From the NCBI GenBank assembly GCA_021790215.1, contig JAJYIG010000003.1:1-42406 (forward strand): a stretch of DNA of 42,406 bases, written 5' to 3'. The translations under genes and the position numbers were made by a program. The DNA is from a bacterium. Its GTDB lineage: Bacteria; Patescibacteriota; Microgenomatia; UBA8517. The first letter of the stretch is position 1; the number at the start of each line of letters is the position of its first letter. Below the pieces are notes generated by a model. That model was not told the DNA's origin. It saw nothing but the letters and a program-made list of their open reading frames with translations, and did not search any database. Positions 103 to 20,364 of the stretch are shown piece after piece.

Positions 103-104
103 AG

Positions 105-618: not shown

Positions 619-619
619 T

Positions 620-1114
620 ATGTCAGCTAAGGCAATTATTATTAGTTCCATAATATTTATAGGTTTGATAGTTGGAATGGCTTTTTTATTCACCTCAGGT
701 CAAAAACCAGAGGTTAAAGCAATTTCCTATTCTCAATCAGATACCGACAGGCCTAAGGCGGAGGTGGGTAATAAATTTACCGATATTGGAAGTATGGGCG
801 TTAACGATGAAAAAACTGCAGATTTTTCACTTAAAAACACCGGCACCAGACCATTGCAAATACTGGATGTAACTACGAGTTGTCACTGCACCTTTGGCCA
901 GATTATTTACAAAGGAACAGAAAGTCAGAAATTTAGTATGAACGGATCGGGATTTGTTTCAGAGATTGCTCCGGGAGATACTGCAACGGTCAGAATAACG
1001 TACATTCCATCAATTATGCCGGTCTCAGGAATTATCGAAAGAGAAGCTTACGTTAAAACAAATGACCCTGAAAATCCAAGAATAATTTTTAGCATACAAG
1101 CAAACGTTAAATAA
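620..1114 (+). CDS. DUF1573 domain protein, membrane anchored
   Basis: N-terminal TM; KTADFSLKNTGTRPLQILDVTTSCHCT...PGDTATVRITYIP...REAYVKTNDPENP typical DUF1573. Confidence 0.8.
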   Translation: MSAKAIIISSIIFIGLIVGMAFLFTSGQKPEVKAISYSQSDTDRPKAEVGNKFTDIGSMGVNDEKTADFSLKNTGTRPLQILDVTTSCHCTFGQIIYKGTESQKFSMNGSGFVSEIAPGDTATVRITYIPSIMPVSGIIEREAYVKTNDPENPRIIFSIQANVK

Positions 1115-1115
1115 C

Positions 1116-1937
1116 ATGAATACAAATTTTCTTTTTGGAATTTCTCTAACAGCGTCATTTTTAGCAGGGGTACTAGCTCTTTTTGCGCCATGTTGTATTA
1201 CATTTTTGTTTCCATCATATCTTGGGACAATATTTAAAGAGGGAAAAAGAGTCATGTACTATACGCTAGTATTTGCAGTAGGCTTAGGATTTGTTTTAAT
1301 TCCTATTGCGCTCGGTGTACGTTTTGTTGTTTTCTTTTTAGATTCTTATCATTCTCAGGTTTACTATTTAGGTGCTTTGATCATGATTGCAATGGGGTTC
1401 ATGACGTTAAAACCTGTATTTCATTTACCACAGTTTTTCCATGTCAGTGGAATACAAGATAAAAAAATTAACACGGCTAGCGTTTTTGGGCTCGGGTTAA
1501 TGTCAGGTTTAACATCTGCATGTTGTGCACCGGTTCTTTTTGCAGCAGTTACTTTGACTTCACTTTCGCCGACACTTCTCCAAGCGATTTTTGTTTCTGT
1601 TGCCTATATAACCGGTATTGTTATGCCACTTTTCTTAATTTCAATGTTTTATGACAAGGTTACTAATAAAATTGCAGGCGCAAATAGAAAGAAAATTTAT
1701 GATGTTCTCAAATATATCGGCGCCGGAATATTTTTTATTACAGGGATTTTGATAGCAGTTTTTAACTATCTCGGAAAGATTCAGATGAACCAAATGGAAG
1801 GCTATGGCAGGTCAATCCGTTTAACTGTCTATTATATTTCTAAATATTTTCAAAATCCTTTAGTTGATTTGTTAACTTTCGGTTTAATTGTTTTTAGCTT
1901 TTATAAGCTATTGAAACATAAAGACAAAGAATCTTAA
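1116..1937 (+). CDS. CcdA/DsbD-like transmembrane thiol-disulfide transporter
   Basis: Multi-TM, LFAPCCITFLFPSYLG and GLTSACCAPVLFAAVT Cys-Pro motifs. Confidence 0.75.
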   Translation: MNTNFLFGISLTASFLAGVLALFAPCCITFLFPSYLGTIFKEGKRVMYYTLVFAVGLGFVLIPIALGVRFVVFFLDSYHSQVYYLGALIMIAMGFMTLKPVFHLPQFFHVSGIQDKKINTASVFGLGLMSGLTSACCAPVLFAAVTLTSLSPTLLQAIFVSVAYITGIVMPLFLISMFYDKVTNKIAGANRKKIYDVLKYIGAGIFFITGILIAVFNYLGKIQMNQMEGYGRSIRLTVYYISKYFQNPLVDLLTFGLIVFSFYKLLKHKDKES

Positions 1938-1966
1938 TTAAATCTTAAAGTATCGCTTAGTATTAT
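1932..1966 (+). promoter_or_regulatory. Putative response-regulator box plus -10
   Basis: TCTTAAT (1932-1938) and TCTTAAA (1943-1949), 11-nt period; TATTAT 1961-1966; ATG at 1974. Confidence 0.6.
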
Positions 1967-1973
1967 TAATAAA

Positions 1974-2924
1974 ATGGCAAAATTTACAATTAACCTACCA
2001 GATGTTTCAAAATTAGTCCCTTTGATCTTATTTTTGAGTTTAATTACAAACCTGATTTTTGTGATTATTCTTGTTCCTTCATTGCTAAGTCAATTTAGAT
2101 CAACAAGCAATAAATCAACAACATCAACTGCTACAACTAGCAAAGACAATATTTTCGACCAGATTAATCCTACCAGCGGATTTGAGATAAATGCAACTTA
2201 CGGTGATTTGGGGCCGAAAATGGTCGCTCTTGGAGTGATCGACCAAAAGAAGTTCGAAAGCACATACCAAAATTCTAATCAGCCATTAACGGCCGATCAA
2301 GAAAAAATTTTGACTCAAGGCTCGGATCAAAAAATTAAAATCACAAGTGACAATTCCTACTTCTTGCTTAACTTTTTTTGGGCGGTAGGTCTCGCCAATA
2401 AATCAAATATCCTCTCTCAGGGGGATATGGTCAAATATGGAGGTCAGGGCGGAGCAGGCAACTTTGCTTCAACCGGTGGTTGGACTTTGGCTAAATCTTC
2501 TGCAATGAATTATTATTCGAAATCTCCCTTGATTTCGCTCACACCAGATCAAGAAAAGTTAGTCGAGAACGTATCCTCAAATATTTATAGACCATGTTGT
2601 GACAACCCAACGTCCTTTCCTGATTGCAATCACGGAATGGCACTCCTGGGAATCTTGGAGCTGATGGCTTCTCAGGGCGCGAGCGAAGCGGATATGTACA
2701 ATGCTGCTAAATATATAAACGCTTTCTGGTTCCCGGGTAACTATTCTGATTTGGCTTTATATTTCAAGAATAAAGAGGGTAAATCGTTCAAAGATATCGA
2801 TGCAAAAACCATTTTAAGCAAGGATTATTCATCGGCTACAGGCTATCAGAACAAGAAACAATGGCTGACTCAGAATGGTGTAGTAGAAACTCCTGCAAAA
2901 CAAGGTGGGGGTTGCGGCGTGTAA
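1974..2924 (+). CDS. Membrane-anchored hypothetical protein with Cys/His cluster
   Basis: 316 aa, N-terminal TM, YRPCCDNPTSFPDCNHGMA motif, C-terminal GGGCGV. Confidence 0.7.
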   Translation: MAKFTINLPDVSKLVPLILFLSLITNLIFVIILVPSLLSQFRSTSNKSTTSTATTSKDNIFDQINPTSGFEINATYGDLGPKMVALGVIDQKKFESTYQNSNQPLTADQEKILTQGSDQKIKITSDNSYFLLNFFWAVGLANKSNILSQGDMVKYGGQGGAGNFASTGGWTLAKSSAMNYYSKSPLISLTPDQEKLVENVSSNIYRPCCDNPTSFPDCNHGMALLGILELMASQGASEADMYNAAKYINAFWFPGNYSDLALYFKNKEGKSFKDIDAKTILSKDYSSATGYQNKKQWLTQNGVVETPAKQGGGCGV

Positions 2925-2925
2925 T

Positions 2926-3024
2926 ATGAACCTGAATACAGTATTATTAATATTAGTAATACTTGCCTGCCCTCTTATGCATTTATTTATGATGCGGGAA
3001 CATAAAGGGAAACACAGGCATTAA
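2926..3024 (+). CDS. DUF2933-like small membrane protein (missing from ORF track)
   Basis: 32 aa MNLNTVLLILVILACPLMHLFMMREHKGKHRH; TM then CPLMHLFMM and His-rich tail; starts 1 nt after the upstream stop. Confidence 0.7.
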   Translation: MNLNTVLLILVILACPLMHLFMMREHKGKHRH

Positions 3025-3037
3025 GGAGGTTATATAA

Positions 3038-3295
3038 ATGAAATTAAAAGTAATGGCAATGGCAAATGCCGCCGGACTTCTAGGGGCAATCTACTTTATC
3101 GGTTGTTGGGTTATCGCCGGAATTTTACCTGATTTATACAAAGCAATTTTTGTTAGTTGGATGCACATGATTGAAGTTTCATCCCTCTGGAAAACCGGCT
3201 CGTCTAGTTTCTTATTAGGTTTCGTGAGTTTTACGGTAGTTAGTTGGGTAACAGGCTGGCTTTTTGCCTGGTTTTACAACAAATTTGCCAAATAA
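3038..3295 (+). CDS. DUF5676-like membrane protein
   Basis: 85 aa, two TM segments; preceded by AAGGAGGT Shine-Dalgarno at 3023-3030. Confidence 0.65.
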   Translation: MKLKVMAMANAAGLLGAIYFIGCWVIAGILPDLYKAIFVSWMHMIEVSSLWKTGSSSFLLGFVSFTVVSWVTGWLFAWFYNKFAK

Positions 3296-3300
3296 AACCA

Positions 3301-3334
3301 ACTTCATGAAATCTTAATGATTTTTTAATATAAT
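3301..3334 (+). promoter_or_regulatory. Putative response-regulator box plus -10 (autoregulatory)
   Basis: ACTTCAT 3301, TCTTAAT 3312, TTTTAAT 3323 in 11-nt register; TATAAT 3329-3334; ATG 3341. Confidence 0.6.
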
Positions 3335-3340
3335 ACGCTC

Positions 3341-4003
3341 ATGTGTATTCTAATTGTTGAGGACGAAAGGCGTCTTTCGAATATTATAAAAAGAGGCCTT
3401 ACCGAAGCTGGTTTCGCAGTCGACCAAGCTTTTGATGGCGAGGAAGGTAGTTACCTAGCTGAGGAGGAAGATTACGATCTAATTATTCTTGACTTGATGC
3501 TGCCCAAAGTTGACGGGATTACGGTATGCAAGAATCTTCGCAAGAACGGTGTTAAAACACCAATTATAATCCTTACCGCCAAATCCTCTATTGAAGACAA
3601 ACTTCAGGGGTTAGACAGTGGAGCTGACGATTATCTTACCAAACCATTCTCTTTTTTGGAACTTAAATCGAGGATTCATGCACTCATTAGAAGAAGCTCT
3701 AAAGAAGCCACTCCGGCCCTCACAATTGAAGACCTTACTCTTGATCCAATAAAACATTCTGTAGTAAGAAATGGCGAGTCTGTTAATCTCACTCCAAAAG
3801 AATTCTCTATTCTAGAGCTTCTTATGCGCCATAGGGACGAGGTGATAACAAGGTCAATGATAATAGAACATGTTTGGGATTATAACTACGACGGAATGAG
3901 TAACGTAGTTGACGTCTTTCTGACTACACTGCGGCGCAAAATAGATTCTAAAGCCAATAAAAAGCTAATCCAAACCATACACGGTGTTGGATATAAAATT
4001 TGA
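3341..4003 (+). CDS. OmpR/PhoB-family response regulator
   Basis: Receiver (VEDERRL, DLMLPKVDG, LTAKS..TKPF) and winged-helix DNA-binding domain (VDVFLTTLRRKID..GVGYKI). Confidence 0.95.
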   Translation: MCILIVEDERRLSNIIKRGLTEAGFAVDQAFDGEEGSYLAEEEDYDLIILDLMLPKVDGITVCKNLRKNGVKTPIIILTAKSSIEDKLQGLDSGADDYLTKPFSFLELKSRIHALIRRSSKEATPALTIEDLTLDPIKHSVVRNGESVNLTPKEFSILELLMRHRDEVITRSMIIEHVWDYNYDGMSNVVDVFLTTLRRKIDSKANKKLIQTIHGVGYKI

Positions 4004-4007
4004 TAAT

Positions 4008-5366
4008 ATGAACACAAAAGGAATTAGATTTAAGATTATTTCTTGGTTCACTGTAACTCTTTTTCTGGTTGTCACTACTACTTTTGCCTCCTTTTATCTA
4101 ATTACTAGACAAATCCTTTTTGCACAGGTAGATAGTGAACTTAAAAATCACTCACAGAAGTTCGTACCGGCATTAACTAATAGGACACAGATTAAAAACA
4201 TAGATTTTAGTGACACACCCGGGATGGTTGTTACACTTTTGGACCAGAACGGAAGTGCGCTGCAAAGTTCCTTGAGCTTAAATAGCCCATTTGTTTCATA
4301 TAAATATCCTTTTAGCGTGGTAGAGAATAGCCCCGAACCTGTTTTTATAGACCAAAGTATAAGCAATATGCCAATGAGATTTATTGCCGTTCCAGTTAGA
4401 GATGGAGATAAACTATTAGGCGTTGTGCTCGTAGCCCACCCAATTGATGTGATTCAAAAGTCATTAAATATTCTGATAGTCGCTCTTGCCGCACTCTTAG
4501 TACTACTTATTTTCCCCATTGTAATCATTGGTAACTTCCTGGCTGGAAAAATGGTAAAACCGCTGACCGAAGTGGTCAATAAAATGCAACATATAAGCTC
4601 CGAAAATCTTGATGAGAGAGTAAATGTCCCCAAGACTAAAGATGAACTACAAAGTCTTGGTATTACGTTTAATAGCCTTCTCGATCGTCTACAGGATTCT
4701 TTCAGAAGGGAAAGACAATTTATTGGAGACATGGCTCATGAGTTAAAAACCCCCATTGCTACTTTAAAAAGTGAGATAGAGTTATCGCTTTCAAAAAATA
4801 GGACAATTGATGAGTACAGAAAAACCTTAGAAAGTTCACTAATCGATACGAACAGGTTGTCAACCTTAACGGGAAACATTTTAGATTTGGCTTGGACCAG
4901 GGCACAGAAAAACTCGGGGAAGAAATTTAGTTTGTCTGATTTGATAAAGGAGATGGGGGAAATTGCAAATAAACTGGCACTTCAAAAGGAGATAACCATC
5001 AAAACCGACATTGGCGATAATGTTTTTATTACAGGTTTCCCCGATAAAATGGGACGAGCAGTATTAAATATCTTGGATAATGCTATCAAATTCACCCCAA
5101 AAGGCGGGGTGGTATCATTAAATCTGTATAAAAAGGGCAATAAGGCTCAGATAGAAATCAAGGATACAGGAATTGGGATTCCAGCAAAGGAACTTCCACA
5201 CATTTTCGAGAGATTTTATAGAGGGACCAATGAGAATAAAGCTACAGGTACCGGATTGGGACTGGCGATTTCCAAAGGAATTATAGAAATGCACAATGGA
5301 AGTATTAATATTAAGAGTAAGGTCGGAGTAGGGACAATCGTAACCATAATCTTAATGAATTCTTAA
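4008..5366 (+). CDS. Sensor histidine kinase (HAMP, HisKA, HATPase)
   Basis: GDMAHELKTPIATLKSEIE H-box; DNAIKFTPKGG; DTGIGIP; GTGLGLAISKGI. Start M9 of the track ORF placed after the RR stop. Confidence 0.93.
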   Translation: MNTKGIRFKIISWFTVTLFLVVTTTFASFYLITRQILFAQVDSELKNHSQKFVPALTNRTQIKNIDFSDTPGMVVTLLDQNGSALQSSLSLNSPFVSYKYPFSVVENSPEPVFIDQSISNMPMRFIAVPVRDGDKLLGVVLVAHPIDVIQKSLNILIVALAALLVLLIFPIVIIGNFLAGKMVKPLTEVVNKMQHISSENLDERVNVPKTKDELQSLGITFNSLLDRLQDSFRRERQFIGDMAHELKTPIATLKSEIELSLSKNRTIDEYRKTLESSLIDTNRLSTLTGNILDLAWTRAQKNSGKKFSLSDLIKEMGEIANKLALQKEITIKTDIGDNVFITGFPDKMGRAVLNILDNAIKFTPKGGVVSLNLYKKGNKAQIEIKDTGIGIPAKELPHIFERFYRGTNENKATGTGLGLAISKGIIEMHNGSINIKSKVGVGTIVTIILMNS

Positions 5367-5384
5367 TCCGAATTCAGATACTAT
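5350..5384 (+). promoter_or_regulatory. Putative response-regulator box plus -10
   Basis: TCTTAAT 5350-5356 and TCTTAAT 5361-5367 (perfect, 11-nt period); TACTAT 5379-5384; ATG 5391. Confidence 0.6.
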
Positions 5385-5390
5385 TTAACA

Positions 5391-5750
5391 ATGGATTTAC
5401 AAAAACTGCTCGTCACAATTTTTAGTTTTGGAGGCATTGCTTTTACCTACTGGTTCTTTTTGATGAAAAAAGAGAAAGAGGTAGAAGCTTCCGATTCAAT
5501 AAATATAACAGTTAATGGTGGTTATAATCCTGAGGTTATATCAATACCGTTTGGTAAAACTACAATTTTGAATTTCACACGAACAGATCCAACAGAATGC
5601 CTGAATGAAATTGTCTTAGGGGACTTCAATATCAGACGAGAACTTCCTTTAGGTAAAAAGATAGCTATAAAACTCGATCCCAAGAAAAAAGGAGAATTTG
5701 GATATTCGTGCGGGATGAATATGTATCATGGAAAAATCGTCGTCAAATAA
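5391..5750 (+). CDS. Membrane-anchored cupredoxin-domain protein
   Basis: TM anchor; [16 protein letters not shown]...[17 protein letters not shown] blue-copper-type motif. Confidence 0.8.
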
Positions 5751-7974
5751 TCAAACAACAAAAACATATCCAATTAAAGGAATGCACTGTGCAAGCTGCG
5801 TTCGAGTGATTGAACGTGCACTGTCCGTCGTTCCAGGGGTGTCAAAATGTAATGTTAATCTGGCAACTGAAAAGGCAACCGTTGTTTTTGACCAAAATAA
5901 AGTTACAAACGACACGATAGCAAATGCTGTCAAAAATGTTGGGTACGAGGCAATTGTTGATCAAAAAATTGAAGAAAAGGACGAACTTCAGCAAGAAAAA
6001 TTAAAGGAACTAAAAGCCCTAAGAAACAAAGTAATCATTGGGCTTTCACTTGGAATCTTAATTCTTTGGGGAAGCTTCCCTGGCCTAATGCACACAGCCC
6101 CAATGATATTACAGAACTTTTGGGTACAAATGCTTTTGGCTACTCCGGTTCAGTTTTGGGTTGGTTGGGAATTTTATAGAGCGACAATAAACTCGCTGCG
6201 CCACAGGACTGCCAACATGGATACATTGGTTACTATTGGCACAACAGTTGCCTATTTATACTCTGTTGTTGTAACGATATTTCCCGCTCTAATAAGTGGA
6301 ATTACCAATAATCCAATGCCTTATTTTGATACGTCTACAATTATTATTGGTCTAATTCTTCTTGGAAGATATTTTGAAGCCAAAGCAAAAGCCGGTACCA
6401 GTGAAGCTATAAAAAAACTCATCGGGCTACAGGCAAAAACAGCCAGAGTTATTAGAAATGGCGAGGAAGTAGATATTCCTATTGATCAAGTAAAAATCGG
6501 AGATGTTATACGAGTTAGACCCGGAGAGAAAATTCCAGTTGACGGAATAATTCTAGAAGGAGAAAGCTCGATTGATGAATCGATGATTACCGGGGAAAGC
6601 TTGCCTGTAGACAAAATTAAAGGTGATACAGTGGTTGGCGCCACAATGAATAAAACCGGCTCCTTTACTTATAAAGCGACCAAAATCGGGGAAGATTCAA
6701 TGTTGGCTCAGATTATTAAATTAGTCGAAGATGCCCAAGGTAGCAAAGCCCCTATCCAACGTTTGGCAGATTTGGTTTCTTCATATTTTGTCCCAATAGT
6801 ATTGATGCTGGCTTTTGTCACTTTTGCTATTTGGTTTGATTTTGGACCAACACCTGCTTTTCTTTTTGCGCTTCTTAATACCGTTGCCGTTCTTATCATC
6901 GCTTGCCCTTGTGCCATGGGTTTGGCGACTCCTACTGCGATTATGGTTGGAACAGGAATTGGCGCTGAGAATGGAATTTTAATTAAAGATGCAGAAAGTC
7001 TGGAAATTGCCGGAAAGATAAAATCTGTCGTTTTTGATAAAACGGGAACTTTAACCAATGGAAAACCAGAGGTTACTGATGTAATACCGGGTGCGGGTTT
7101 TACTAAAAATGACATTTTAAGGATTGCAGCTTCTATTGAAATTAAATCTGAACATTCTCTTGCCGAAGCAATTGTATCGAAAGCTAAACTCGAAAAAATA
7201 AAATTGGTAGATTTAGAAAAATTCCAAGCCATTCCGGGCCACGGAGTTTCTGGTCTAATTAGCAAAAATAAGATCCTTTTTGGTAACGGAAAGTTAATGG
7301 ATAAAGAAGGTATTGTTTTTTCAAAACAGAAAGGTGATATTGAAAATCTTGAAAACGAAGGTAAAACTGTAATGCTTCTAGCTCAGAGTAAGCAATTAAT
7401 AGGTCTTGTTGCCGTTGCCGATACTTTGAAGGAAAGTGCTAAGAATGGTGTAGATAAACTCAAAAAGATGGGAATAGAAACGATTATGTTTACAGGTGAT
7501 AATACTCGCACGGCTAACGCCATTGCTAAAAGAGCTGGTGTCGATAAAGTTCTTGCAGAAGTATTACCGGGGGATAAGGAATCAGAAATAAGAAAAATTC
7601 AGGCTATTGGTAAAAAAGTTGCTATGGTGGGTGACGGAATTAACGATGCACCCGCTCTTGCTGCCGCTGACGTCGGAATTGCAATGGGCACAGGAACTGA
7701 TGTCGCGATTGAGGCCGCGGACATTACACTTATCAACAAAAATCTTGAGTCTGTTGCCAATGCTATCGAACTTTCAAAAAAGACTATGCGGACTATCAAG
7801 ATGAATTTAATTTGGGCCTTTGGCTATAACATTATCTTAATCCCAATAGCGATGGGGGTGCTTTATCCGTTTTTTAGAATTTTACTTAATCCGATATTTG
7901 CTTCGGTTGCGATGGCTTCAAGTTCTGTCTCAGTTGTAACCAACTCCTTGTTACTTAAGAGATTTAAAATTTAA
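5728..7974 (+). CDS. copA: Copper-translocating P1B-type ATPase
   Basis: GMHCASC HMA domain, [31 protein letters not shown]-motif region [28 protein letters not shown]. Confidence 0.93.
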
Positions 7975-7976
7975 AA

Positions 7977-9098
7977 ATGGAAGAAAATTCAAAGAGCTTA
8001 TTTAAAATACTTATTGGAGTCTTAGTTGTACTTGGAATTGTCACGAGCTATTTGTTAATCAAATTATTCTTGGTTACAAACACATCAATTGATTTAACCA
8101 AACTGGCACCCGGTAATACGAATCTTATTCCAATTTTTCTGACAGGGCTTTTAACTGGGGGTCTGACTTGTCTTGCGGTTCAGGGTGGTCTTTTGGCTTC
8201 CACTATTGCAATGCAGGAAGAGGAGAGGTTGGAAGAAAAAGGTAAGAAAAGCGGAAATGCGGTTCCAATATTGTCCTTTTTAATAGCAAAACTAATTGCT
8301 TATACGATTCTTGGATTTTTGTTGGGTTGGTTTGGATCACTTTTCCAATTATCCTTAACTGCTCAAGTAATAATGCAGTTTGTCGTGATCATTTTTATGA
8401 TAGGCACAGCTGGAAACATTTTAGAAGTTCACCCAATATTCAGATATTTTGCGATTCAACCTCCCAGATTTTTAACTAAAATAATTAGGAATCAATCCAA
8501 AAGTAAAAACATTTTCGCCCCTGCTTTTTTAGGGGCGCTTACAATTTTCATTCCTTGCGGAACAACCCAGGCGATGATGGCGTTGGCAATTGGAAGCGGA
8601 AAACCAATCTTGGGGGCTTCCATCCTTTTTTCATTTATCCTAGGCACGACCCCCCTCTTTTTCATTCTTGGTTATTTTGCAACAAAGCTAGGAGATACTT
8701 ATCAAAAAAAATTCATGAAAGTAGCCGCAGTCGCATTGATTTTACTATCAATATTTAATCTCAAAAATGCACTAGGGCTCGCCGGAATCAATATTGGATC
8801 GATCAAACCTTCAAATACTGGCGATGTTGCCGTTAATAATCCTACTATAGAGATAACTTCGAGTGGTTATTCTCCGGGAAGTATAAACGTTAAATCTGGA
8901 GCTAAAATCAAGCTAACATTAAATAACACTACGGGCGGTGGATGTATCCAATCCTTTGTAATACCGAAACTAGGAGTTCAGCAAGTTGTTAGAGAAGGAA
9001 CAACTCAAACTGTGGAATTTACCGCACCAGACCAAAAAGGCCAGATAGCTTTTATGTGCGGCATGGGAATGTTTAGAGGAGTAATTAATGTTATATGA
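7977..9098 (+). CDS. SafE/TauE (UreH-like) membrane domain fused to C-terminal cupredoxin domain
   Basis: Multi-TM with GLLTGGLTCLAVQGG, IPCGTTQAMMALA; C-terminal GGGCIQSFVIPKLG...AFMCGMGMFRGVINVI. Confidence 0.8.
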   Translation: MEENSKSLFKILIGVLVVLGIVTSYLLIKLFLVTNTSIDLTKLAPGNTNLIPIFLTGLLTGGLTCLAVQGGLLASTIAMQEEERLEEKGKKSGNAVPILSFLIAKLIAYTILGFLLGWFGSLFQLSLTAQVIMQFVVIIFMIGTAGNILEVHPIFRYFAIQPPRFLTKIIRNQSKSKNIFAPAFLGALTIFIPCGTTQAMMALAIGSGKPILGASILFSFILGTTPLFFILGYFATKLGDTYQKKFMKVAAVALILLSIFNLKNALGLAGINIGSIKPSNTGDVAVNNPTIEITSSGYSPGSINVKSGAKIKLTLNNTTGGGCIQSFVIPKLGVQQVVREGTTQTVEFTAPDQKGQIAFMCGMGMFRGVINVI

Positions 9099-9322
9099 GT
9101 AAAATTAGAGAGGCGAAATTCAAAATAGACGGTATGCACTGTGTAAGTTGCGCCATGAATATTGATTTTGATTTGGAAGATTTGGACGGAATTCACAGCG
9201 CAAAAACCAGTTATGCTAAATGCGAGTGTCAAGTTAAATATGACGAGGAAAAAATAAACCATAACGATGTGATATCACAAATTAATAAAACAGGATATAA
9301 AGTTAAGGAGGTGAGTATCTGA
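9095..9322 (+). CDS. HMA-domain copper chaperone (CopZ-like)
   Basis: KIDGMHCVSCAMNID metal-binding loop; ATGA overlap with upstream gene. Confidence 0.8.
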   Translation: MSKIREAKFKIDGMHCVSCAMNIDFDLEDLDGIHSAKTSYAKCECQVKYDEEKINHNDVISQINKTGYKVKEVSI

Positions 9323-9323
9323 G

Positions 9324-9524: not shown

Positions 9525-10829
9525 CTAATGTGCTCTAAGTGAAGTTATGTTCCCATTCTGGACGAATAGAGGAAAGTTAAAAAGATTAAATAGCTCCCGT
9601 TTTTCTTCTATATTTTTATTTGTTATTACATATCTCGCATAATCTCGTATATCCCAAATTCTTGAGTTTGGATTAATATCTTGTTGGAGAAAAATTGCCT
9701 CTCTCATTCTTTTGAATTCGTTTAGACCCTCTTGAATTTTATCTGTTAAGACTAACTCATGAGAATGGGCAATATACATAAAATTGATAAGTTTCAGCAA
9801 GCTTCTTTCTAATTCTTCTTCAGAAATGTACGGTTCCTTACAAGTGTGATCAATTTGCCTCGAGCAGTGATAGTAAATATGATATCTAGGCTCCTTATTT
9901 AATCTTTCTCTATATCTATCTTCTCCAACAATACTTGCTTTACAATTCGCACATTTGAGCAATCCCCTATATGTAAAGGTCTTTGATCCCCATTTAGATT
10001 TTTTGGGAACTACTAATTTTTTCTGAACTTTATCGAATATTTCTTTTGTGATCAAAGGCGGGTAGGATCCTTTGTACCAATTTCCGCTTTTTAACGGAAA
10101 TTCAAACTCTCCGTAATAAAACGGGTTTCTTAACATTAAATATATCTGACTAAGGCTAACCGGAATACCTGATTTGTTAGAAAATTTTATTTCGTCTAAC
10201 CATTTTTTGATCTTTCTACCACTTGCATTTTCTTCAATAACTTTTGTGAACATTTGGGTAATAATTGGGCTTCTTTCCGGATCAAGTATTACGTCTTTTA
10301 TGCCATTAAAACTTCTATTCATATATCCAATTGGGCTAGGCCCCGGTCGCCATCCCATCTCGCATTTTGCCCTGATTCCTCGTTTTACATTTATTCCTTT
10401 TTGGTCATTCTCGAGTTTTGCCTGGGAGCAAAGAATCATTAAAAGAAACTTCTCATTGGGATTATTTGAAAACATTTGTGAGAAAGTTCTAATTTGTAAA
10501 AGCTTTCCCTGATCCATTAAGTCGACTAAATTTCCCAAATCGCCAGCGTTACGTGACAATCTATCTGGTGCCCATGTAAGAATTCCGTTAAATCTTTTTT
10601 CTCGGATGTCGCTAAGGAGTTTCATGAACATCGGGCGTTGTCCTGAATCTTTTGCCGAGTGGCTTTCCTGTAGAATTTCAGTTACCTTCAAACCTTCTTT
10701 AATCGCAAGAGCCTGCATCTCCTTTAATTGGCTATCAATACTCATTACTTGCCGTTCGTCACTTTCTGATGACTTTCTTGCATACAAACAATAGTTTATA
10801 GGTTGTTCTAAGGGTAGGGTTGTTTCCAT
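9525..10829 (-). CDS. Large serine recombinase (resolvase N-domain, recombinase and Zn beta-ribbon domains)
   Basis: YARKSSESDERQVMSIDSQ..; GILTWAPDRLSRN; CANCKASIVG...YHCSRQIDHTC Zn ribbon. Confidence 0.92.
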   Translation of the reverse strand: METTLPLEQPINYCLYARKSSESDERQVMSIDSQLKEMQALAIKEGLKVTEILQESHSAKDSGQRPMFMKLLSDIREKRFNGILTWAPDRLSRNAGDLGNLVDLMDQGKLLQIRTFSQMFSNNPNEKFLLMILCSQAKLENDQKGINVKRGIRAKCEMGWRPGPSPIGYMNRSFNGIKDVILDPERSPIITQMFTKVIEENASGRKIKKWLDEIKFSNKSGIPVSLSQIYLMLRNPFYYGEFEFPLKSGNWYKGSYPPLITKEIFDKVQKKLVVPKKSKWGSKTFTYRGLLKCANCKASIVGEDRYRERLNKEPRYHIYYHCSRQIDHTCKEPYISEEELERSLLKLINFMYIAHSHELVLTDKIQEGLNEFKRMREAIFLQQDINPNSRIWDIRDYARYVITNKNIEEKRELFNLFNFPLFVQNGNITSLRAH

Positions 10830-10842
10830 CAGGATGGAGAGT
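10804..10842 (+). repeat. 39-bp direct repeat copy 1 (overlaps recombinase start codon)
   Basis: tgttctaagggtagggttgtttccatcaggatggagagt, identical to 14355-14393. Confidence 0.95.
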
Positions 10843-10875
10843 ACCGCAAAAATTGTAAAAGTCTAGAGGTATAGC

Positions 10876-13512
10876 CTAAGTATTAGTTCTTTTCAGTAGT
10901 CGGGCAGAGTTTAGAAAAACAGCGACATCAGGGAATGATTGGGCGGCAGCTGCAAATACTGGAGGTAAAAATCCGATTGAGGCTAATCCCATTCCTACAA
11001 TATCAAAACCTATTCCTAAGGCGATATTTTGTTTAATCGTGCTAAAGGTTTTCTTGGCAATAGCAATTGCTTCCGGGAGTTGATTCCAATCATCTCCCAT
11101 CAGCACCACATCGGCGGCTTCTAGGGCAATATCAGTACCGGCTGCACCCATACCGATGCCCACATCGGCCTGTGAAAGTGAAGGTGCGTCATTTACTCCG
11201 TCACCCACCATTGCTACTTTGTACCCTCGTTCTTGTAAATCTTTTACCACCTGAATTTTGTCTTCAGGTAATAATTCCGCCTGACAATCAATGCCTAAAG
11301 CAGATGCCACTGTTTGAGCAGAGTGTTTATTATCTCCGGTCAGCATGATGATCTTTTTAAACCCGAGTTTCTTTAGTGTTTCTATCGCCGGTTTCACTTC
11401 GTTACGGATAATATCAGTGATTGCCAACAAACCCAAAACACCCTCTTTTCTATTGGCTAAGATCAAGACGGTTTTTCCTTGTTTCTCAGATGCTTCAATC
11501 AGGTCTTTTGTTTTAAAGTTGATGGTAATACCCTGTTCATGGAGCAATTTTTGATTACCCAAATAATGGGTTTGCTTTTTAATACTGGCGATCACCCCTT
11601 TACCGGCAAGAGTCGAAAACTTGTCCGGTTCGGATAGATGTACAGCCAACTCAGCCGCCTTATCAAGCACGGATTTAGCCAAAACATGCTCTGAATACCG
11701 TTCCACTGATGCAGCAATCGAAAGGATGTCATCGCTTGTCAAATTAGAAACAGAAATAATATCGGTTACCTGCGGTCTGCCAAAGGTTAAGGTGCCGGTC
11801 TTGTCCACCAATAGCACATTTACTTTAGCTAACAGTTCCAGATAACGACCACCTTTAATGAGAATCCCTTGCTTGGCCGCTCTACCTGTTGCCGCTACCA
11901 CAGCCATAGGAGTCGATAAGGCCACGGCACAGGGACAAGCTACTACCAGTACGGCAATTGTTGCAGATAAGTTTCTGGTGAATAAATATGTCGCGGTGGC
12001 AACTAGGATTACCAAAGGCAAGTAATAACCGCTAAACCGGTCAGCAAACTTTTGAATAGGTGCCTTATTTGTTTCAGCCTCTTCAACCAGATGAATAATT
12101 TTACCCAAAGTAGTATCGGCTCCTACCCGGTTTACCTTGATCTCCAAATGACCTGATTGATTCATTGTGGAAGCAAAAACCTGACTTCCCAGTTCAATCC
12201 GAACAGGTGTAGATTCGCCGGTAATTGTCGCCTGGTCCACCGCACTGACCCCTCGGGAGACAATACCGTCAACAGGAATTCTCTCACCGGGTTTAACCAC
12301 TATCGTGTCTCCAACGATAATATCTGTAATATTGACTTCAACTTCCTTACCTCCTTTTTTAATCCACGCCGTGGTGGGAGCCAATTTAATAAGTTCATTG
12401 ATTGCTTGGCGGGAACGGTCAACAGTAAAACTTTCCAAAAAATGAGCAATGCGCACAAAAAATACAATTAATAATGCGGCAGATAGCTCATGTGAGACGG
12501 AAGCCGCGGTTATACCCACAGTCATGATCAAATCGGTATTGACCTCCTTGTGTAGTAGGTTTTGCAGGGCACTTTTAAAAATCGGATAGCCTCCAACTAA
12601 AACAGCACCAATCAAAAGCCAGTTCGGAATGGGAACAAGTACAGCCTCAAGAATACCAAGTCGTTCAAAGACAATTTCGACTAACAAAAGAACGGCTAAA
12701 AAACCAACAAAAGCAAAAGTAATGATGCCGTCAATCTTGATTCCCTGGGTTTTTGCATCGTTTACCACCTTAAGCCCTGAGCGTTGAATCAACTGTTTAA
12801 TATCAGCCAGCGAAATTATATTTTCGTCATAAGTCAGAGATACTTTTTCAGCAGTAAAAAGAAAGTTATAAGTACTGATACCCGTCTGTGTTTTAAGCAC
12901 TTTCTCCAAAGGAAGAGCGCATTCAGGGCAATCTAATCCTTTCACTTTTAGACTTATCTCTTTTATCGCTTGAGTCTTTGCCGTTGAGTCGATAGTTAGC
13001 CCTGCAACATTTTCAGTCGATTGACGGCTACACTGTCCTTCAGCACACGTATTACAGTTATTATCTTTTCTAATTCGATAAAAACCATATATAACAGAAA
13101 GCAAGGTTAAACCGGCAATAATTGGTTTGGTAACACCCAAAAACGAGACTCCAAATATCCCGGCATAGATAGCCAGCATGGGTGATCCGCAGCAGCCAAT
13201 TAAAAAACAGCCGGCAATCGATAAAATGGAAACCAAGGACAGTCCACCAAAAACGCCTTTCAGATTGCCAGGAGAGGAACGGCGACGGTCTAGATAATTA
13301 ATAAAGGTAAATGTCATAAATGCCGTAGCCAAAGCATAGGAAAAGCCAAGGAAATAGTCCCTTTGATCAAAATATCCTTGAATAATTAGTGGAATCTGGC
13401 TGTTATCGACCACCCAGGGAGAAAAAAGTGTTTTGCTTAATATTCGAAAGCCAAAGTGGAGAACAAAAACGGCTATAAATACGACAAATGGGAGGTAATG
13501 TCTAAATTTCAT
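10876..13512 (-). CDS. P1B-type heavy-metal ATPase with N-terminal MerT-like membrane domain and HMA domain
   Basis: GCFLIGCCGSPMLAIYAG..NNCNTCAEGQC, then VKGLDCPECALPLEKVL, then ATPase core VACPCAVALSTPMAV, DKTGTLTFG, GDGVNDAPSLSQADVGIGMG. Confidence 0.88.
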   Translation of the reverse strand: MKFRHYLPFVVFIAVFVLHFGFRILSKTLFSPWVVDNSQIPLIIQGYFDQRDYFLGFSYALATAFMTFTFINYLDRRRSSPGNLKGVFGGLSLVSILSIAGCFLIGCCGSPMLAIYAGIFGVSFLGVTKPIIAGLTLLSVIYGFYRIRKDNNCNTCAEGQCSRQSTENVAGLTIDSTAKTQAIKEISLKVKGLDCPECALPLEKVLKTQTGISTYNFLFTAEKVSLTYDENIISLADIKQLIQRSGLKVVNDAKTQGIKIDGIITFAFVGFLAVLLLVEIVFERLGILEAVLVPIPNWLLIGAVLVGGYPIFKSALQNLLHKEVNTDLIMTVGITAASVSHELSAALLIVFFVRIAHFLESFTVDRSRQAINELIKLAPTTAWIKKGGKEVEVNITDIIVGDTIVVKPGERIPVDGIVSRGVSAVDQATITGESTPVRIELGSQVFASTMNQSGHLEIKVNRVGADTTLGKIIHLVEEAETNKAPIQKFADRFSGYYLPLVILVATATYLFTRNLSATIAVLVVACPCAVALSTPMAVVAATGRAAKQGILIKGGRYLELLAKVNVLLVDKTGTLTFGRPQVTDIISVSNLTSDDILSIAASVERYSEHVLAKSVLDKAAELAVHLSEPDKFSTLAGKGVIASIKKQTHYLGNQKLLHEQGITINFKTKDLIEASEKQGKTVLILANRKEGVLGLLAITDIIRNEVKPAIETLKKLGFKKIIMLTGDNKHSAQTVASALGIDCQAELLPEDKIQVVKDLQERGYKVAMVGDGVNDAPSLSQADVGIGMGAAGTDIALEAADVVLMGDDWNQLPEAIAIAKKTFSTIKQNIALGIGFDIVGMGLASIGFLPPVFAAAAQSFPDVAVFLNSARLLKRTNT

Positions 13513-13931
13513 TGGGGTTTGAGCTGTGAGGCCTTAATTATTAACTTACCCGAGCCGTCACGGAACACTGTGCCTGAAACTTGGACAAAATCTTTAACAT
13601 TGGGTAGGGTTCCTGAGTAACTTACCGGAATCTGATTGATGGCGCAAGTGACTACCCCGCAATTGGCAAATTCCTTGTTATCAATAATCACCAGTGTTTG
13701 GCTTTCCGGATAAACAAAGGAAACTACCCCTCTAAGATTTATTGATTTATCAAGGTATTGGTTGACATTGTCTGCCATAGTATTAACGTCTAGGACGGTT
13801 CCTGAATTTATTTGGCTAAGGTTGTTCGTACTATTTGTTGCTTTGATCAGCGTTTCGTATTTGACGATTAAGCCAACTCCAATAAGCAGCATTATTATTA
13901 AAACGATAGATAAATATTTTGTTGATTTCAT
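13509..13931 (-). CDS. Membrane-anchored OB-fold-like protein
   Basis: N-terminal TM; KSINLRGVVSFVYPESQTLVIIDNKEFANCG..VQVSGTVFRDGSGKLIIKA; internal Met start chosen, track ORF extends to 13952. Confidence 0.55.
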   Translation of the reverse strand: MKSTKYLSIVLIIMLLIGVGLIVKYETLIKATNSTNNLSQINSGTVLDVNTMADNVNQYLDKSINLRGVVSFVYPESQTLVIIDNKEFANCGVVTCAINQIPVSYSGTLPNVKDFVQVSGTVFRDGSGKLIIKASQLKPQ

Positions 13932-13936
13932 AATTT

Positions 13937-14266
13937 TTAGTATCTGGTACACTCAAAAATATTATTGGCGGTCAACTTCAAGATACTTTGCCCGAGTTTT
14001 ATCAGTTCGGCGATTTTTTCATCCACCAAACAATAAAAAACCTGTCTGCCGTCTTGTCTGCTTTGAACTAAGCCGCACTCCTTAAGACAACTTAGGTGGG
14101 CTGAAACATTTGGTTGTGACAAACCCGTAACTTCAACTACCTCATTCACTGACTTTTCTTTGTCGATTAAGGATTTAAGAATTGCCAAACGGGAACTGTC
14201 GGCAAAACCGTTAAAAAGACGGGCTTCTAGTTGGATAGTGTTTTGATTGGTGATATTACGACTCAT
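13937..14266 (-). CDS. ArsR-family metalloregulator
   Basis: ADSSRLAILKSLI...VTGLSQPNVSAHLSCLKECGLVQSRQDGRQVFYCL winged helix. Confidence 0.88.
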   Translation of the reverse strand: MSRNITNQNTIQLEARLFNGFADSSRLAILKSLIDKEKSVNEVVEVTGLSQPNVSAHLSCLKECGLVQSRQDGRQVFYCLVDEKIAELIKLGQSILKLTANNIFECTRY

Positions 14267-14290
14267 ATATATAATCGTGTAATTATATAT
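14267..14290. promoter_or_regulatory. Putative ArsR operator
   Basis: Perfect inverted repeat ATATATAAT-cgtgta-ATTATATAT abutting the ArsR start codon. Confidence 0.65.
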
Positions 14291-14354
14291 CAATATATTA
14301 ATATTTTTTCAGATTGTCAATAACACTACATTTTATAAGTATTATGTTATGGGC

Positions 14355-14393
14355 TGTTCTAAGGGTAGGGTTGTTTCCATCAGGATGGAGAGT
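14355..14393 (+). repeat. 39-bp direct repeat copy 2 (truncated recombinase 5' end)
   Basis: Identical to 10804-10842; on - strand reads METTLPLEQPIT*. Confidence 0.95.
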
Positions 14394-14441
14394 GCCGTAA
14401 GGATAGATGAAGTCTAGTCACAAGAACAAAACTTATCATAG

Positions 14442-15950
14442 TTACCAGTTATCATCACTGTTGAAAGACAGTGAACGACTAATGCTTTCGTACGGGCCGA
14501 TACAAGGTACGAAATATACGTCAATACCCGGGGTGCTGGCCACTTCTAAGATTTTTAATAGAAGAAGTGAAAAAGCATCTGCCAAATCATCATGCCTTTC
14601 GATTCCGAATCCTGTTAACTGATTTATTAATTCTTCAGCGCCGTATCTTGGAAACCAAACTTTTCCTTGTTGAATTATATGAGTAACTAAAGCGAGTCTG
14701 GTTCTTTTGTCCTGGCCATGAATTTGGACTCCCTCGACGAGAATACTTTTGCTACTCAGATAATCAATGAAGGCTTTTTGATAACCGACCTCTTCGATAA
14801 ATAACTTCGTTTGTTCCCCATTTACTACAGTTTTTGAAAGTGAAATAGCAACATCAACCGTTGTCGGAAAATCCATCCTTTTATTTATAGGGTTTGGTAG
14901 GATATACACACCCAACTTTTCTCCCCGACCAAACATATATGCAGAAACCATTGCGGTGTAATCTGCCGATTCTCTTTCAGAGATAGCAAGATCAATTCCT
15001 ACTGCTGCAAATTCAAAATCATCTGCATCTGGGGAAGGGAGATTATCATAAAATTTAATCCACTCACGTTTAACAAGTCTATCCTCGTCTGAAATAATTT
15101 TGAGTAAATATTCACGATAGAAAGCTGACTCCTGCAAAAATGTTTTCTTTAGTTTTTCGACATCTTCCATGGTGGGGTATTTGGCGGGCCACAAAATATT
15201 TTTACCGTCATCAATAAGGGGATATTCAAAAAATTCTCCCGATAATCTTCCCTCATAGATAGATTTTTTAAATCTCATAATTAAACTGTCCTCGTGAAGA
15301 AGATTTCCGATTACCAAGGTCTTTGTATTTTTATCTCCTACTGGAACAATTTCGGCGTTAAACCATGTATTGGTTCGGTCCCGTCCCTCTTTGGTTTTAA
15401 CGCTGTTTATATCTTCAATATCATCACAAATGATTAGATCGGGTCTATATTGTTCATGCCTTATCCCGCGGATACTTTGTTCGGTAGAAACAGCCGCAAT
15501 CCTTGCTCCGAACTTTGGGATTACAATTGAGTTGGATCCCCACTCGTCTTCCGGTGATTCAAATGGCCCGATATCGGCCTTAAGTAAGTCGTTACTTTCC
15601 AGTTCCCGCTTTATATTTTCCAAGTGCAGTTTTGCCTGCGCTTGGGTTTGGCTGACAATTAATACAAACTTTTTTTGCTGAATTCCTACGATTGACCAAA
15701 TCACATAGGAAAGAGTGACCAGAGTTGACTTTGCCGATCCGCGAAACGCCACAAGAACGGCGAACTCAACATTTTCTTCAGTCAATTTAAATATCTCATG
15801 ATGGAATGGTGCAAACTCACAGTTTATGTAGTGGGGTAGATAAAGTGAGAAAAACCAATAATGGCTTTTCCTGGCAAGAGCACGCCTGATTTTTCTGTCT
15901 CTCCTGATCTTATTCAACTCTTCCTGACCGAGTTGTGGAAAATAAGTCAT
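14442..15950 (-). CDS. Phage terminase large subunit
   Basis: VLVAFRGSAKSTLV (Walker A), LIICDDIED (Walker B), AVGIDLAISERESADYTAMV nuclease-like motif. Confidence 0.87.
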   Translation of the reverse strand: MTYFPQLGQEELNKIRRDRKIRRALARKSHYWFFSLYLPHYINCEFAPFHHEIFKLTEENVEFAVLVAFRGSAKSTLVTLSYVIWSIVGIQQKKFVLIVSQTQAQAKLHLENIKRELESNDLLKADIGPFESPEDEWGSNSIVIPKFGARIAAVSTEQSIRGIRHEQYRPDLIICDDIEDINSVKTKEGRDRTNTWFNAEIVPVGDKNTKTLVIGNLLHEDSLIMRFKKSIYEGRLSGEFFEYPLIDDGKNILWPAKYPTMEDVEKLKKTFLQESAFYREYLLKIISDEDRLVKREWIKFYDNLPSPDADDFEFAAVGIDLAISERESADYTAMVSAYMFGRGEKLGVYILPNPINKRMDFPTTVDVAISLSKTVVNGEQTKLFIEEVGYQKAFIDYLSSKSILVEGVQIHGQDKRTRLALVTHIIQQGKVWFPRYGAEELINQLTGFGIERHDDLADAFSLLLLKILEVASTPGIDVYFVPCIGPYESISRSLSFNSDDNW

Positions 15951-16369
15951 TTTTGCCCCTCCTTTTCTACTGCCGGAATTAGTGAAGCCAGCTGTAAGGC
16001 TTTTGTCACCAACGCTTCCTGTTCAGGGGTTAATGTTTCGTTTTGATTCTTTAAATTCGCTGTAACTTCAACCTTGGTTGCATAAGCTTGATGGTGGTGC
16101 TTTAACCAGAAAATAATAGCTGTCATGTTTTGATCCTTTATGGCCGTCAGGAGCTGGCTCTCCGCCATATCATTCACTAGAGCAGACCCTGCTTCCAGGG
16201 CCAACTCCGCTTCTTTTGCAAACTTTTCGTCATTTATTTTCCATCTGTAATATGTAGCCCTGGCTATCCCGATTTTTCTGCATGCAACCTCAACTACGGG
16301 AGTCTCCTTTAATTTTTCCAGTAAATCTTTCTTCTGAATTGATTGTCTTTTGATAATTGTATTTGTCAT
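15947..16369 (-). CDS. Terminase small subunit-like HTH protein
   Basis: VEVACRKIGIARATYYRWKINDEKFA HTH; ATGA overlaps with both neighbours. Confidence 0.65.
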   Translation of the reverse strand: MTNTIIKRQSIQKKDLLEKLKETPVVEVACRKIGIARATYYRWKINDEKFAKEAELALEAGSALVNDMAESQLLTAIKDQNMTAIIFWLKHHHQAYATKVEVTANLKNQNETLTPEQEALVTKALQLASLIPAVEKEGQK

Positions 16370-17715
16370 TGCATTTTTACGGCTTTTAGCCCGGTCAGGT
16401 TCTCCCATCTTTTTTTAATGACCTCAGCGTAAACCGGCGACTTTTCCATCACATAACATCTTCTATGCATCTTTTCGGCCGCAATTAGGGTACTACCGGA
16501 ACCGCCAAAAGGTTCAATTATTAAATCATTCCTTTTAGTTAGAACTTTTATATAGGGGATAAGTATTTCAATCGGTTTAGTTCCAAAAATTATTCCCTGT
16601 CCAGAACTTTTTTCATCTGATGCCTTATATTCAATAAAATCAGTCGGACAGTATTTCTTCCCTTTCTCATAACTTTCCCATGTTGGTTTACCGGATGTAG
16701 CGTAAAGTGCGGTCTCATATTCCTCTTGAAGTAGGGGTTCACCCTCAGGATCTTTATTCAGATTTATATTTCCTGAGGTTCCCAGCATAGCGAAATCGTA
16801 TTTATTAAAAAACTTATATTTTGCCGCAAATCCCTGCATTCTGTTTGGTAGATGCCAGATAATCGTGTTTCGATATTTCCAATGTTTTTCTAACTCATTC
16901 CAAATAGTTCTTAAGTTCTTCGGATTTTCATAAACAATAATTGAAAAATTCGGTTTTTGGATTTTGGAAACGTTTTCCATCCATTTTTCCGTAAAATCAG
17001 GTGGTAGAACATCGGTCTCCAAATATCTTCGATCCCTTTTGGCCCCGAATCCTGTAATGGCTCCGTTATATTTTTTCTTTCCATGTAGGTAATCCAAGAT
17101 GTAGGGTGGATCGGTGAAACACATGTCTGCTTTTTCATTACCCACTAGTTTCAACACATCAGCTTCAACTGTGGAGTCACCGCACATCAATCTCGAATCC
17201 CCAAGCAAATAGATATCACCTTTTTGAAAATCGATCTTGTTTATATCCAGTTTTTTGAGCTCCTTTTCCAAATCAAATTGTTCAGGTGTTGAATCGATTT
17301 CAAATATTTCGTCAAGGTCTTCTGAAGAAAATCCGACCACCGAAAGAAAGTCTTCGTCAAATTTGGCAAGAAGTTCCCAATCCCACTCTCCGACATTTTT
17401 ATTGAGCCTCAAATTTAACTCCTTTTCCTTCTCAATATCCGGAATGTTTACATAAACTACGGGTATTTCTTTAAATCCCAGGTCTTTAGTAACTTTTAAT
17501 CTAAAATGCCCACCAATAACAACATTCAACCTATTCGGGGCTTTGTTTACTATTATCGGATCCACCAATCCGAATTTTTTGATGCTTGAGGATAATCCGT
17601 TAATTGCCTCAGTTGACCACTTTCTGGGATTATATTCAGCAAATTTAAGCTCTTGTATGTCAACATCTACGATTTTCAGCTTGTCAGATACTGTTTCCAT
17701 AAGCATCTGAAGCAT
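16366..17715 (-). CDS. ParB-like nuclease domain fused to DNA (N4/N6) methyltransferase
   Basis: ELKFAEYNPRKW..IGGHFRLKV ParB; FTDPPYILDY and EPFGGSGSTLIAAEKMHRRCYVME methylase motifs. Confidence 0.88.
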   Translation of the reverse strand: MLQMLMETVSDKLKIVDVDIQELKFAEYNPRKWSTEAINGLSSSIKKFGLVDPIIVNKAPNRLNVVIGGHFRLKVTKDLGFKEIPVVYVNIPDIEKEKELNLRLNKNVGEWDWELLAKFDEDFLSVVGFSSEDLDEIFEIDSTPEQFDLEKELKKLDINKIDFQKGDIYLLGDSRLMCGDSTVEADVLKLVGNEKADMCFTDPPYILDYLHGKKKYNGAITGFGAKRDRRYLETDVLPPDFTEKWMENVSKIQKPNFSIIVYENPKNLRTIWNELEKHWKYRNTIIWHLPNRMQGFAAKYKFFNKYDFAMLGTSGNINLNKDPEGEPLLQEEYETALYATSGKPTWESYEKGKKYCPTDFIEYKASDEKSSGQGIIFGTKPIEILIPYIKVLTKRNDLIIEPFGGSGSTLIAAEKMHRRCYVMEKSPVYAEVIKKRWENLTGLKAVKMQ

Positions 17716-17758: not shown

Positions 17759-18340
17759 TTAATTCGGAAGCTTTGAAATTCCTAACAATCTGTAGCCTTT
17801 TTGCTTCTCTCTGTATAAATCAATCTGTAATCCCGAGTCTCTCAGGGCATCTTTAAGATCCCTTCGTACATATCCTATTCCTTTCATCGGGTTCATAAGA
17901 TCAAGTTCTCTAATCGCTTCAGCATCAGACACATAATTCTCACCATCCGTTAAAAGTAGCTTCAAAAGCTTTCCGTGCTTGGAATTGGTTGTAACAGTAT
18001 CAACCGGCTGGCTCTTAAAAAAGAATCTGCCCTCAACCGATACTGAGAGATCGGTAATACCGCCAATACTGATAACTTCCGCCTCCTGCACGTATGTATC
18101 GGGTTCAAAATTTATTGCAAGCGGATTTATTGCAAGTATTAGACTTTTGGCCAAGCTTATTTGCATTTCCCTCAAACTTTTTGCAAACTCTGCAAATGAC
18201 GGGGTGAGTGCGCTTCGGATTGCCTCGGCACATTGCCTGGCTACCGCATTCTGCATCTCCATCAATTGATTACTAAGCCCCAGTGAAAAATTCATCATCG
18301 GATTTGGATATGCCGCAAGCGTGTTTGACTCTGATTTCAT
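17759..18340 (-). CDS. Putative regulator with C-terminal winged-helix domain
   Basis: HGKLLKLLLTDGENYVSDAEAIRELDLMNPMKGIGYVRRDLKDALRDSGLQIDLYREKQKGYRL resembles OmpR-type wHTH. Confidence 0.5.
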   Translation of the reverse strand: MKSESNTLAAYPNPMMNFSLGLSNQLMEMQNAVARQCAEAIRSALTPSFAEFAKSLREMQISLAKSLILAINPLAINFEPDTYVQEAEVISIGGITDLSVSVEGRFFFKSQPVDTVTTNSKHGKLLKLLLTDGENYVSDAEAIRELDLMNPMKGIGYVRRDLKDALRDSGLQIDLYREKQKGYRLLGISKLPN

Positions 18341-19182: not shown

Positions 19183-20061
19183 TTAGCTCATTAGCTTATC
19201 GGGGAGTAGACTATCCTTTGTCCATTTTCCATCATAAAAAGCAGAATTATTCTCTGAAATTCTTGTAATATCTCTGTCGCCATTTTTGTCTTTAGTTTCT
19301 TCAAAACGATTGATACCAAAATCAACAGCAGCCATTTCTGCATTCTTGGCTGTGTTTGAAAAACCCTTTTTTAAAAGTTCGTTTGAATCAATCCAGGCGA
19401 AATATTCGTGAAGTTTGTGTTCCGGACCAAATGTATTTGTCAACCAAAGATTATTTTCTTTCGATTTGAACTGAAGAATAACCCTCCAAGCTTGATTCTT
19501 TATAGAAACGGGGTGTGTGGCGTAAGCCTCGATTCTTAGACCCGGGGTCAATGTCTTACTATATTTACCATCCCACCAATTCGGATTTTGGACCTCCCGG
19601 AATTTGCCATTCTCAAACTCGAAAGTAAATGTGTCACCGTCGTTAACCAAGTTCTTATCGATATATTCTTTGATCTTTTCAATTGGAAGATTGTCCAAAT
19701 CATCTTTGAGACCGGTTCTGGCAAATAAACTGAGTCCGGAAACTGCAAAGGCAAATCCTACCCATTCATTTTCTTTTTCGGCGGTAACCTTCCCTATGAC
19801 GCCAAAATTTCCCGTCATACTGGCATACCCTTCGCTGTACCATGCGATGGAGTAACCTTTATATTTAACGACTTGGCTATATTGAATAAGTTTTGGATTT
19901 ACTTTAACAAACTCGAGAATATCATCCTCCTTATAGCGCCTGTCTCCGCGGTCGTTTACTTTGATAGCTACCAGTTTTCCTTCCCGATCCCAACGTCTTA
20001 GGGTTTCTGGGTTTACCTTAATTAGAGCAGCTGCCTCATTAATGTCTATGAGTTTGTCCAT
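19183..20061 (-). CDS. MerR/excisionase-type HTH protein with uncharacterised C-terminal domain
   Basis: LIDINEAAALIKVNPETLRRWDREGKLVAIKVNDRGDRRYKEDDILEFV; remaining ~230 aa unrecognised. Confidence 0.7.
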   Translation of the reverse strand: MDKLIDINEAAALIKVNPETLRRWDREGKLVAIKVNDRGDRRYKEDDILEFVKVNPKLIQYSQVVKYKGYSIAWYSEGYASMTGNFGVIGKVTAEKENEWVGFAFAVSGLSLFARTGLKDDLDNLPIEKIKEYIDKNLVNDGDTFTFEFENGKFREVQNPNWWDGKYSKTLTPGLRIEAYATHPVSIKNQAWRVILQFKSKENNLWLTNTFGPEHKLHEYFAWIDSNELLKKGFSNTAKNAEMAAVDFGINRFEETKDKNGDRDITRISENNSAFYDGKWTKDSLLPDKLMS

Positions 20062-20173: not shown

Positions 20174-20249
20174 TGGGCTCAGAAGGGCCTAGACCGAGAT
20201 GCTCAGCCAAGCAGTGCACCCCAGTGACCGAGACTTCTAGAATAGCCCA
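20174..20249 (+). ncRNA. Second, elaborated copy of the structured element (candidate RNA)
   Basis: TGGGCT 20174-20179 pairs AGCCCA 20244-20249; CTAGA 20189-20193 pairs TCTAG 20236-20240; internal GCT-cagcca-AGC and CAC-ccca-GTG; sequence similarity to 97-160. Confidence 0.45.
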
Positions 20250-20364
20250 GAAACACCGCCAAAAAAGCTATTTTCAAAAGCGAGGATTATAACCATCGTT
20301 TACTCTCGAAAAAGCCCCGTTCGAATCTCTATTCTGTTGAGTTTATGGGATATAATCAAATAAC

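Follow-up and report, generated by a model that had tools for sequence, protein, structure and literature searches.

The 39-bp direct repeat TGTTCTAAGGGTAGGGTTGTTTCCATCAGGATGGAGAGT occurs without a mismatch on the forward strand at 10804-10842 and 14355-14393 of the 42,406-nucleotide stretch of DNA analysed here (the window; contig JAJYIG010000003.1, from a Patescibacteria genome), where it brackets a heavy-metal cassette at the start of a large serine recombinase (LSR) gene inside a mobile island. On balance, we take this repeat to be the footprint of an exchange of gene modules rather than a working attachment (att) site. Read along the minus strand, genes and repeats succeed one another as terL, repeat copy 2, ArsR, an OB-like gene, a MerT/HMA ATPase, copy 1 and the LSR (Table 1). 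Copy 1 contains the ATG of the LSR, while copy 2, whose upstream motif starts 25 nt beyond the terL stop codon, reads METTLPLEQPIT and then terminates; an intact LSR follows copy 1 only. An earlier reading of the letters alone (the sequence-only reading) had described the perfect repeat, the shared start in its two copies and the three genes as the sole content between them, and all of this holds. It had also proposed that the cassette entered at, or duplicated, the 5’ end of the recombinase gene, possibly by way of a recombinase att site there. The duplication stands, but an att site at this place is not supported, and the candidates for such sites lie at the ends of the island.

Dinucleotide shuffles of the repeat gave no match at up to 3 mismatches, and the 0.99-Mb genome contains no third copy. 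The weaker similarity previously noted on both sides is real, the in-register alignment covering 84 nt with 81% identity (10783-10866 and 14334-14417). Beyond the 39 bp, the copies match at 16/24 nt on the promoter side (shuffle p 5e-5) and at 13/21 nt on the coding side (p 0.002), or, by element, at 8/16 positions of the promoter spacer and 13/21 of codons 12-18. Beyond METTLPLEQPI, what follows in copy 2 is a degenerate form of LSR code (ATAACATAATACTTATAA, compared with ATAACCTACTGCCTTTAC in L035), and copy 2 aligns in register with the LSR starts of relatives on either side of the 39 bp. The perfect 39 bp are thus a sharp island of identity within an older duplication, and since both flanks are homologous above chance yet diverged, a recent exchange or conversion inside that duplication is suggested.

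Just 5’ of the ATG in nearly all Patescibacteria relatives of the LSR (drawn from a sample of a 97,973-genome collection, and metagenome assemblies) lies a motif consisting of CTAGACTT, 11-14 bases and GCGGTAC. Among these relatives the first ~10 codons of the LSR lack conservation. In the window’s own genome the motif is present solely at the two copies of the repeat. That of copy 2 is complete but decayed, with CA in place of the TA of GGTA, a TA that precedes every LSR start inspected. In L060 (9585-10000), L038 (3681-3940) and L131 (genome G267) the motif also stands ahead of a small gene of ~50 aa upstream of the LSR, the paired motifs being spaced about 185-200 bp apart. As it precedes these small genes too, and its spacing varies by one base, the motif can be read as a promoter, with the ATG probably near the transcription start. 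Its candidacy as an att site was rejected because of the varying spacing (26/27 nt), the lack of a consistent dyad and the occurrences ahead of small genes.

Two lines of evidence point to the promoter and LSR as an exchanged module. Firstly, LSR and TerL identities are uncorrelated across 91 element pairs (r 0.12): the window and G006 share 86% in LSR and 54% in TerL, G006 and L063 65% and 91%, and L060 and G267 97% and 61%, respectively. Secondly, DNA identity changes abruptly near the motif; between L060 and G267 it rises from ~0.4 to 0.8-0.9 at CTAGACTT, between the window and G006 it climbs at the motif and again within the LSR body, and in other pairs the change falls within about 150 bp of CTAGACTT. 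Taken together, the uncorrelated identities and the abrupt steps place an edge of the module near the motif, and indicate that LSR modules have repeatedly been swapped there among related islands. The arrangement of relatives agrees with the TerL-LSR interval being a cargo site. In L033, whose LSR is 86% identical to that of the window, and in L063, terL terminates at the TAG of CTAGACTT and nothing separates the motif from the LSR, an arrangement that the sequence-only reading had predicted; other relatives carry cargo between TerL and LSR with one motif only, and two LSR starts around cargo are found in the window alone.

In the history we propose, the ancestral island would have had TerL at the end of its core, followed directly by the promoter-like motif and start of an LSR. 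The metal cassette and a second, related promoter-LSR unit may then have arrived when homologous LSR starts recombined; the newcomer would have retained its start (copy 1), and the old LSR would persist beside terL as a decayed promoter and ~17 degenerate codons (copy 2). The crossover, or a later gene conversion, would have fallen within the cores of both starts, which would explain why these are identical. Both the order of events and the homologous, as opposed to site-specific, nature of the exchange are inferred. Several points weigh against this history. The simple swaps observed in relatives leave a single start, so that the retained relic and the intervening cassette need an extra step, and the scenario rests on a single locus: no other motif pair bracketing cargo was found in 374 genomes with a pattern that misses variants such as GTGGTAC. 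Copy 2 is weakly homologous on its coding side, the searches turned up no donor for the ATPase/OB cassette, and a site-specific crossover would also leave a perfect 39-bp core.

Such a crossover is the basis of one alternative, which we consider unlikely, in which the LSR, acting in trans, integrated a circle of metal genes at a 39-bp site in its own start, from which it could be excised again with an exchange of the LSR promoter region. Perfect direct repeats do surround a self-contained cassette, the terL-LSR junction of relatives resembles an empty site, a 6-2-6 palindrome (TCCATC-CT-GATGGA) lies within the core, and a direct repeat inside a serine-integrase gene is known from the rumA integrative and conjugative elements (ICEs; PMC4701971). 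However, the likely sites of this LSR are the island ends, to which the 39 bp bear no resemblance (p 0.48 and 0.95), and L033, whose LSR is 86% identical, has neither the palindrome nor the core where that gene begins (0.54 identity over -17..+33). No second bracketed case was found, and after excision the LSR promoter would be altered at an otherwise universal position. The cargo-linked expression switch suggested previously is therefore doubtful: were the 39 bp used for excision, the LSR would come under the decayed copy 2 promoter.

Integration of a circle by a single homologous (Campbell-type) crossover, the circle carrying a paralogous and already broken LSR start so that there was never a second functional LSR, seems to us similarly improbable. 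One crossover would yield the observed order, and the flanks of the repeat are indeed homologous but diverged; the two parents, however, must have shared exactly 39 identical bases between flanks just 50-62% identical, and no such circle or donor is known. It is more improbable still that copy 2 was retained because it is useful, as a promoter with a 12-codon leader driving the ArsR-OB-ATPase operon, which lies entirely on one strand. While its orientation is correct, and the motif precedes a second, different small gene with an ATG close behind in L038, L060 and G267, ArsR is preceded by a promoter-like TTGACA region of its own (about 14.32 kb), and the GGTA that is otherwise universal is no longer intact in copy 2. 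That the assembly fused two strains at the repeat is highly unlikely, for although this is a metagenome bin with strain variation, in which contig C64 represents a second version of the tRNA-Gln site, contigs C12 and C64 share 104 identical bases where they branch, which suggests that the assembler worked with words of about 100, more than the 39 bp of the repeat. A composite transposon or insertion sequence was rejected, as no transposase was found in 10.8-14.4 kb and the in-register homology on either side of the repeat would not be expected of a target duplication.

The island itself seems to span 20.2 kb and to comprise a copper operon (DUF1573, a DsbD-like protein, response regulator, histidine kinase, cupredoxin, CopA, DsbD-cupredoxin and HMA), the LSR, the ArsR/OB/ATPase cassette, TerL, TerS, a ParB-methylase and a MerR/Xis-like gene. 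It probably integrates behind tRNA-Gln through its ~100-bp end sites. The far end was located by eye and then by profile: the left and right ends match at 48 of their first 60 nt, compared with 31/60 at the next best place in the window. These ends are the candidate att sites, and thereby putative substrates, of the LSR. At the far end, a search tolerating up to 4 mismatches found no repeat of the tRNA 3’ end. Conserved RNA pairing is absent from the island ends, and a structured RNA at the tRNA-side end was rejected, since Rfam returned only the tRNA and RNAalifold no pairs. Resolvase (PF00239), Recombinase (PF07508) and zinc ribbon (PF13408) domains all score over their cut-offs in the LSR, which identifies it as a large serine recombinase; its best NCBIfam match is CcrB at 97 bits, followed by CcrC at 67 and CcrA at 55 (cut-offs 900, 900 and 700, respectively). 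Among the proteins searched in 97-20312, none was recognisable as a capsid, portal or tail protein, and a pattern search for TerL in viral contigs gave no match.

Table 1. Features of the island and its anchor (coordinates in the window).
Feature	Position	Strand	Basis or remarks
tRNA-Gln (CTG), chromosomal anchor of island	29..102	+	ARAGORN; Rfam RF00005
Left island end (candidate attL), ~110-nt conserved DNA site	97..205	+	End model R1; match to right end
Cargo 1: copper/metal operon	376..9323	+	Pfam/NCBIfam; inside island ends
LSR, 434 aa	9525..10829	-	Resolvase + Recombinase + zinc ribbon
Repeat copy 1	10804..10842	+	LSR leader, ATG, first codons
Family motif copy 1	10840..10866	-	CTAGACTT-N-GCGGTACT, ahead of LSR ATG, promoter-like
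Cargo 2: MerT-like/HMA heavy-metal P-type ATPase	10876..13512	-	TIGR01525, 594 bits
Cargo 2: OB-like protein, 147 aa	13509..13952	-	Weak Pfam tRNA_anti-like, below cut-off
Cargo 2: ArsR/SmtB metalloregulator	13937..14293	-	Domain matches
Repeat copy 2	14355..14393	+	Relic LSR start; in-register alignment with relatives’ LSR starts
Family motif copy 2, decayed	14391..14417	-	CTAGACTT-N-ACGGCACT; GGTA to GGCA; E 0.0037
Terminase large subunit (TerL)	14442..15950	-	Pfam PF17289; PHROG 38, E 2.6e-80
Terminase small subunit (TerS)	15947..16408	-	PHROG 309
ParB-N / N6-N4 DNA methylase fusion	16366..17715	-	Domain matches
Conserved island protein, no assigned function	17759..18340	-	Adjoins ParB-methylase in L033 and G010
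MerR-like protein	19183..20061	-	PHROG 66, excisionase and regulator
Right island end (candidate attR)	20204..20312	+	Direct repeat of left end

The same end site follows tRNA-Gln in relatives. In G006 it occurs at 4427 and 27336, flanking the LSR and terminase genes, and in L034 (11303-18555) two copies bracket a 7-kb two-component/phosphoesterase-like cargo between the LSR and tRNA-Gln. Four copies lie behind one tRNA-Gln in G017 (C49; L085:82-4705 with L086), and the cassettes between them, about 3 and 1.2 kb long, lack a recombinase (PEP-utiliser-like plus hydrolase; LD-carboxypeptidase-like). In G019, G032 and G040, for which no LSR match was found, tRNA-Gln is accompanied by a single end copy, which fits empty or vacated sites. 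Within the window’s own bin, the stretch that contig C64 (L158) shares with the start of the window is exactly 104 bases long, and is followed in C64 by a different version of the end and a second tRNA-like gene. The tRNA-Gln site thus exists in two versions in this bin, through strain variation or as an alternative allele; the sequence of C64 further downstream is unlike the window beyond 20312, and C64 is therefore not a clean empty site.

Homologues of the cassette were sought in viral contigs and in class and phylum samples, with none found (the ATPase search being limited to E <= 1e-150), and the OB-like protein had no match in the 373 other genomes of the class. Plasmid matches to the cassette were ordinary P-type ATPases only, at about 40-48%.

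The staphylococcal cassette chromosome (SCC) is moved by Ccr serine recombinases, is anchored at the 3’ end of rlmH, and has direct-repeat ends, stacked recombinase-less cassettes and resistance cargo. The island resembles SCC and SCCmec in its LSR, for which CcrB is the nearest NCBIfam model, its fixed chromosomal anchor, its direct-repeat ends and its resistance cargo, and the stacking of recombinase-less cassettes by a recombinase-bearing unit is seen in its relatives G017 and L034, not in the window. It differs in being anchored at tRNA-Gln, which the left end abuts, rather than at rlmH, in an LSR of 434 aa that scores far under the CcrA, CcrB and CcrC cut-offs, in carrying TerS, TerL and the ParB-methylase, and in its Patescibacteria host. 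By analogy, the island would work like SCC, but it is not SCC. In rumA-group streptococcal serine-integrase ICEs, a direct repeat overlaps the 3’ end of the integrase gene and is the att site (PMC4701971). These elements are likewise LSR-based, with a direct repeat possible within the integrase gene; here, however, the repeated 5’ end lies away from the island boundary and no conjugation genes are among those annotated. Terminase genes, an integrase and a MerR/Xis-like gene in a ~20-kb island are reminiscent of prophages and satellites like the phage-inducible chromosomal islands (PICIs), although the window’s island lacks the recognisable structural genes of a prophage. The conserved terminase is unusual and may point to packaging. 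Recombinase-less cassettes beside a recombinase gene also recall integrons, from which the island differs in using a serine rather than a tyrosine recombinase and in ends without an attC-type fold. No description of such islands was found in the part of the literature covered by our search.

To our knowledge, little is established about how Patescibacteria acquire genes. The outline that emerges here is of a bounded mobile island that has a recognisable tRNA anchor, end sites, a recombinase module that reassorts and a cargo of metal-resistance genes. Islands of this kind extend across many genera, and the locus supplies candidate att sites open to direct testing. A further lesson is that a long direct repeat found at an integrase gene is not necessarily the att site of that integrase. 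More speculatively, Patescibacteria may harbour an uncharacterised family of tRNA-anchored, SCC-like islands. In these the LSR would insert cassettes for metal resistance, two-component systems and hydrolases and stack them, while the conserved TerS and TerL would package the island into phage particles, so that the islands would be phage satellites that spread metal resistance among ultra-small bacteria; we put this forward tentatively, as a possibility of rather low probability.

Elements with related LSRs are also found at other tRNA genes (tRNA-Glu, -Lys, -Ser and -Asp; L041, L043, L044, L046, L047, L050, L039 and L037), where a different conserved end of ~120 nt, finishing in CCTGTAAT, lies beside the tRNA. 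The window’s own genome carries a second LSR of the same family, broken into two reading-frame pieces, near a tRNA-Ser (L077:142-1867, contig C69). Beyond the island, a 25-bp perfect direct repeat, TTTACGATGCATTAATGTATAATAA, at 35791-35815 and 36234-36258, surrounds a small open reading frame (35805-36230).

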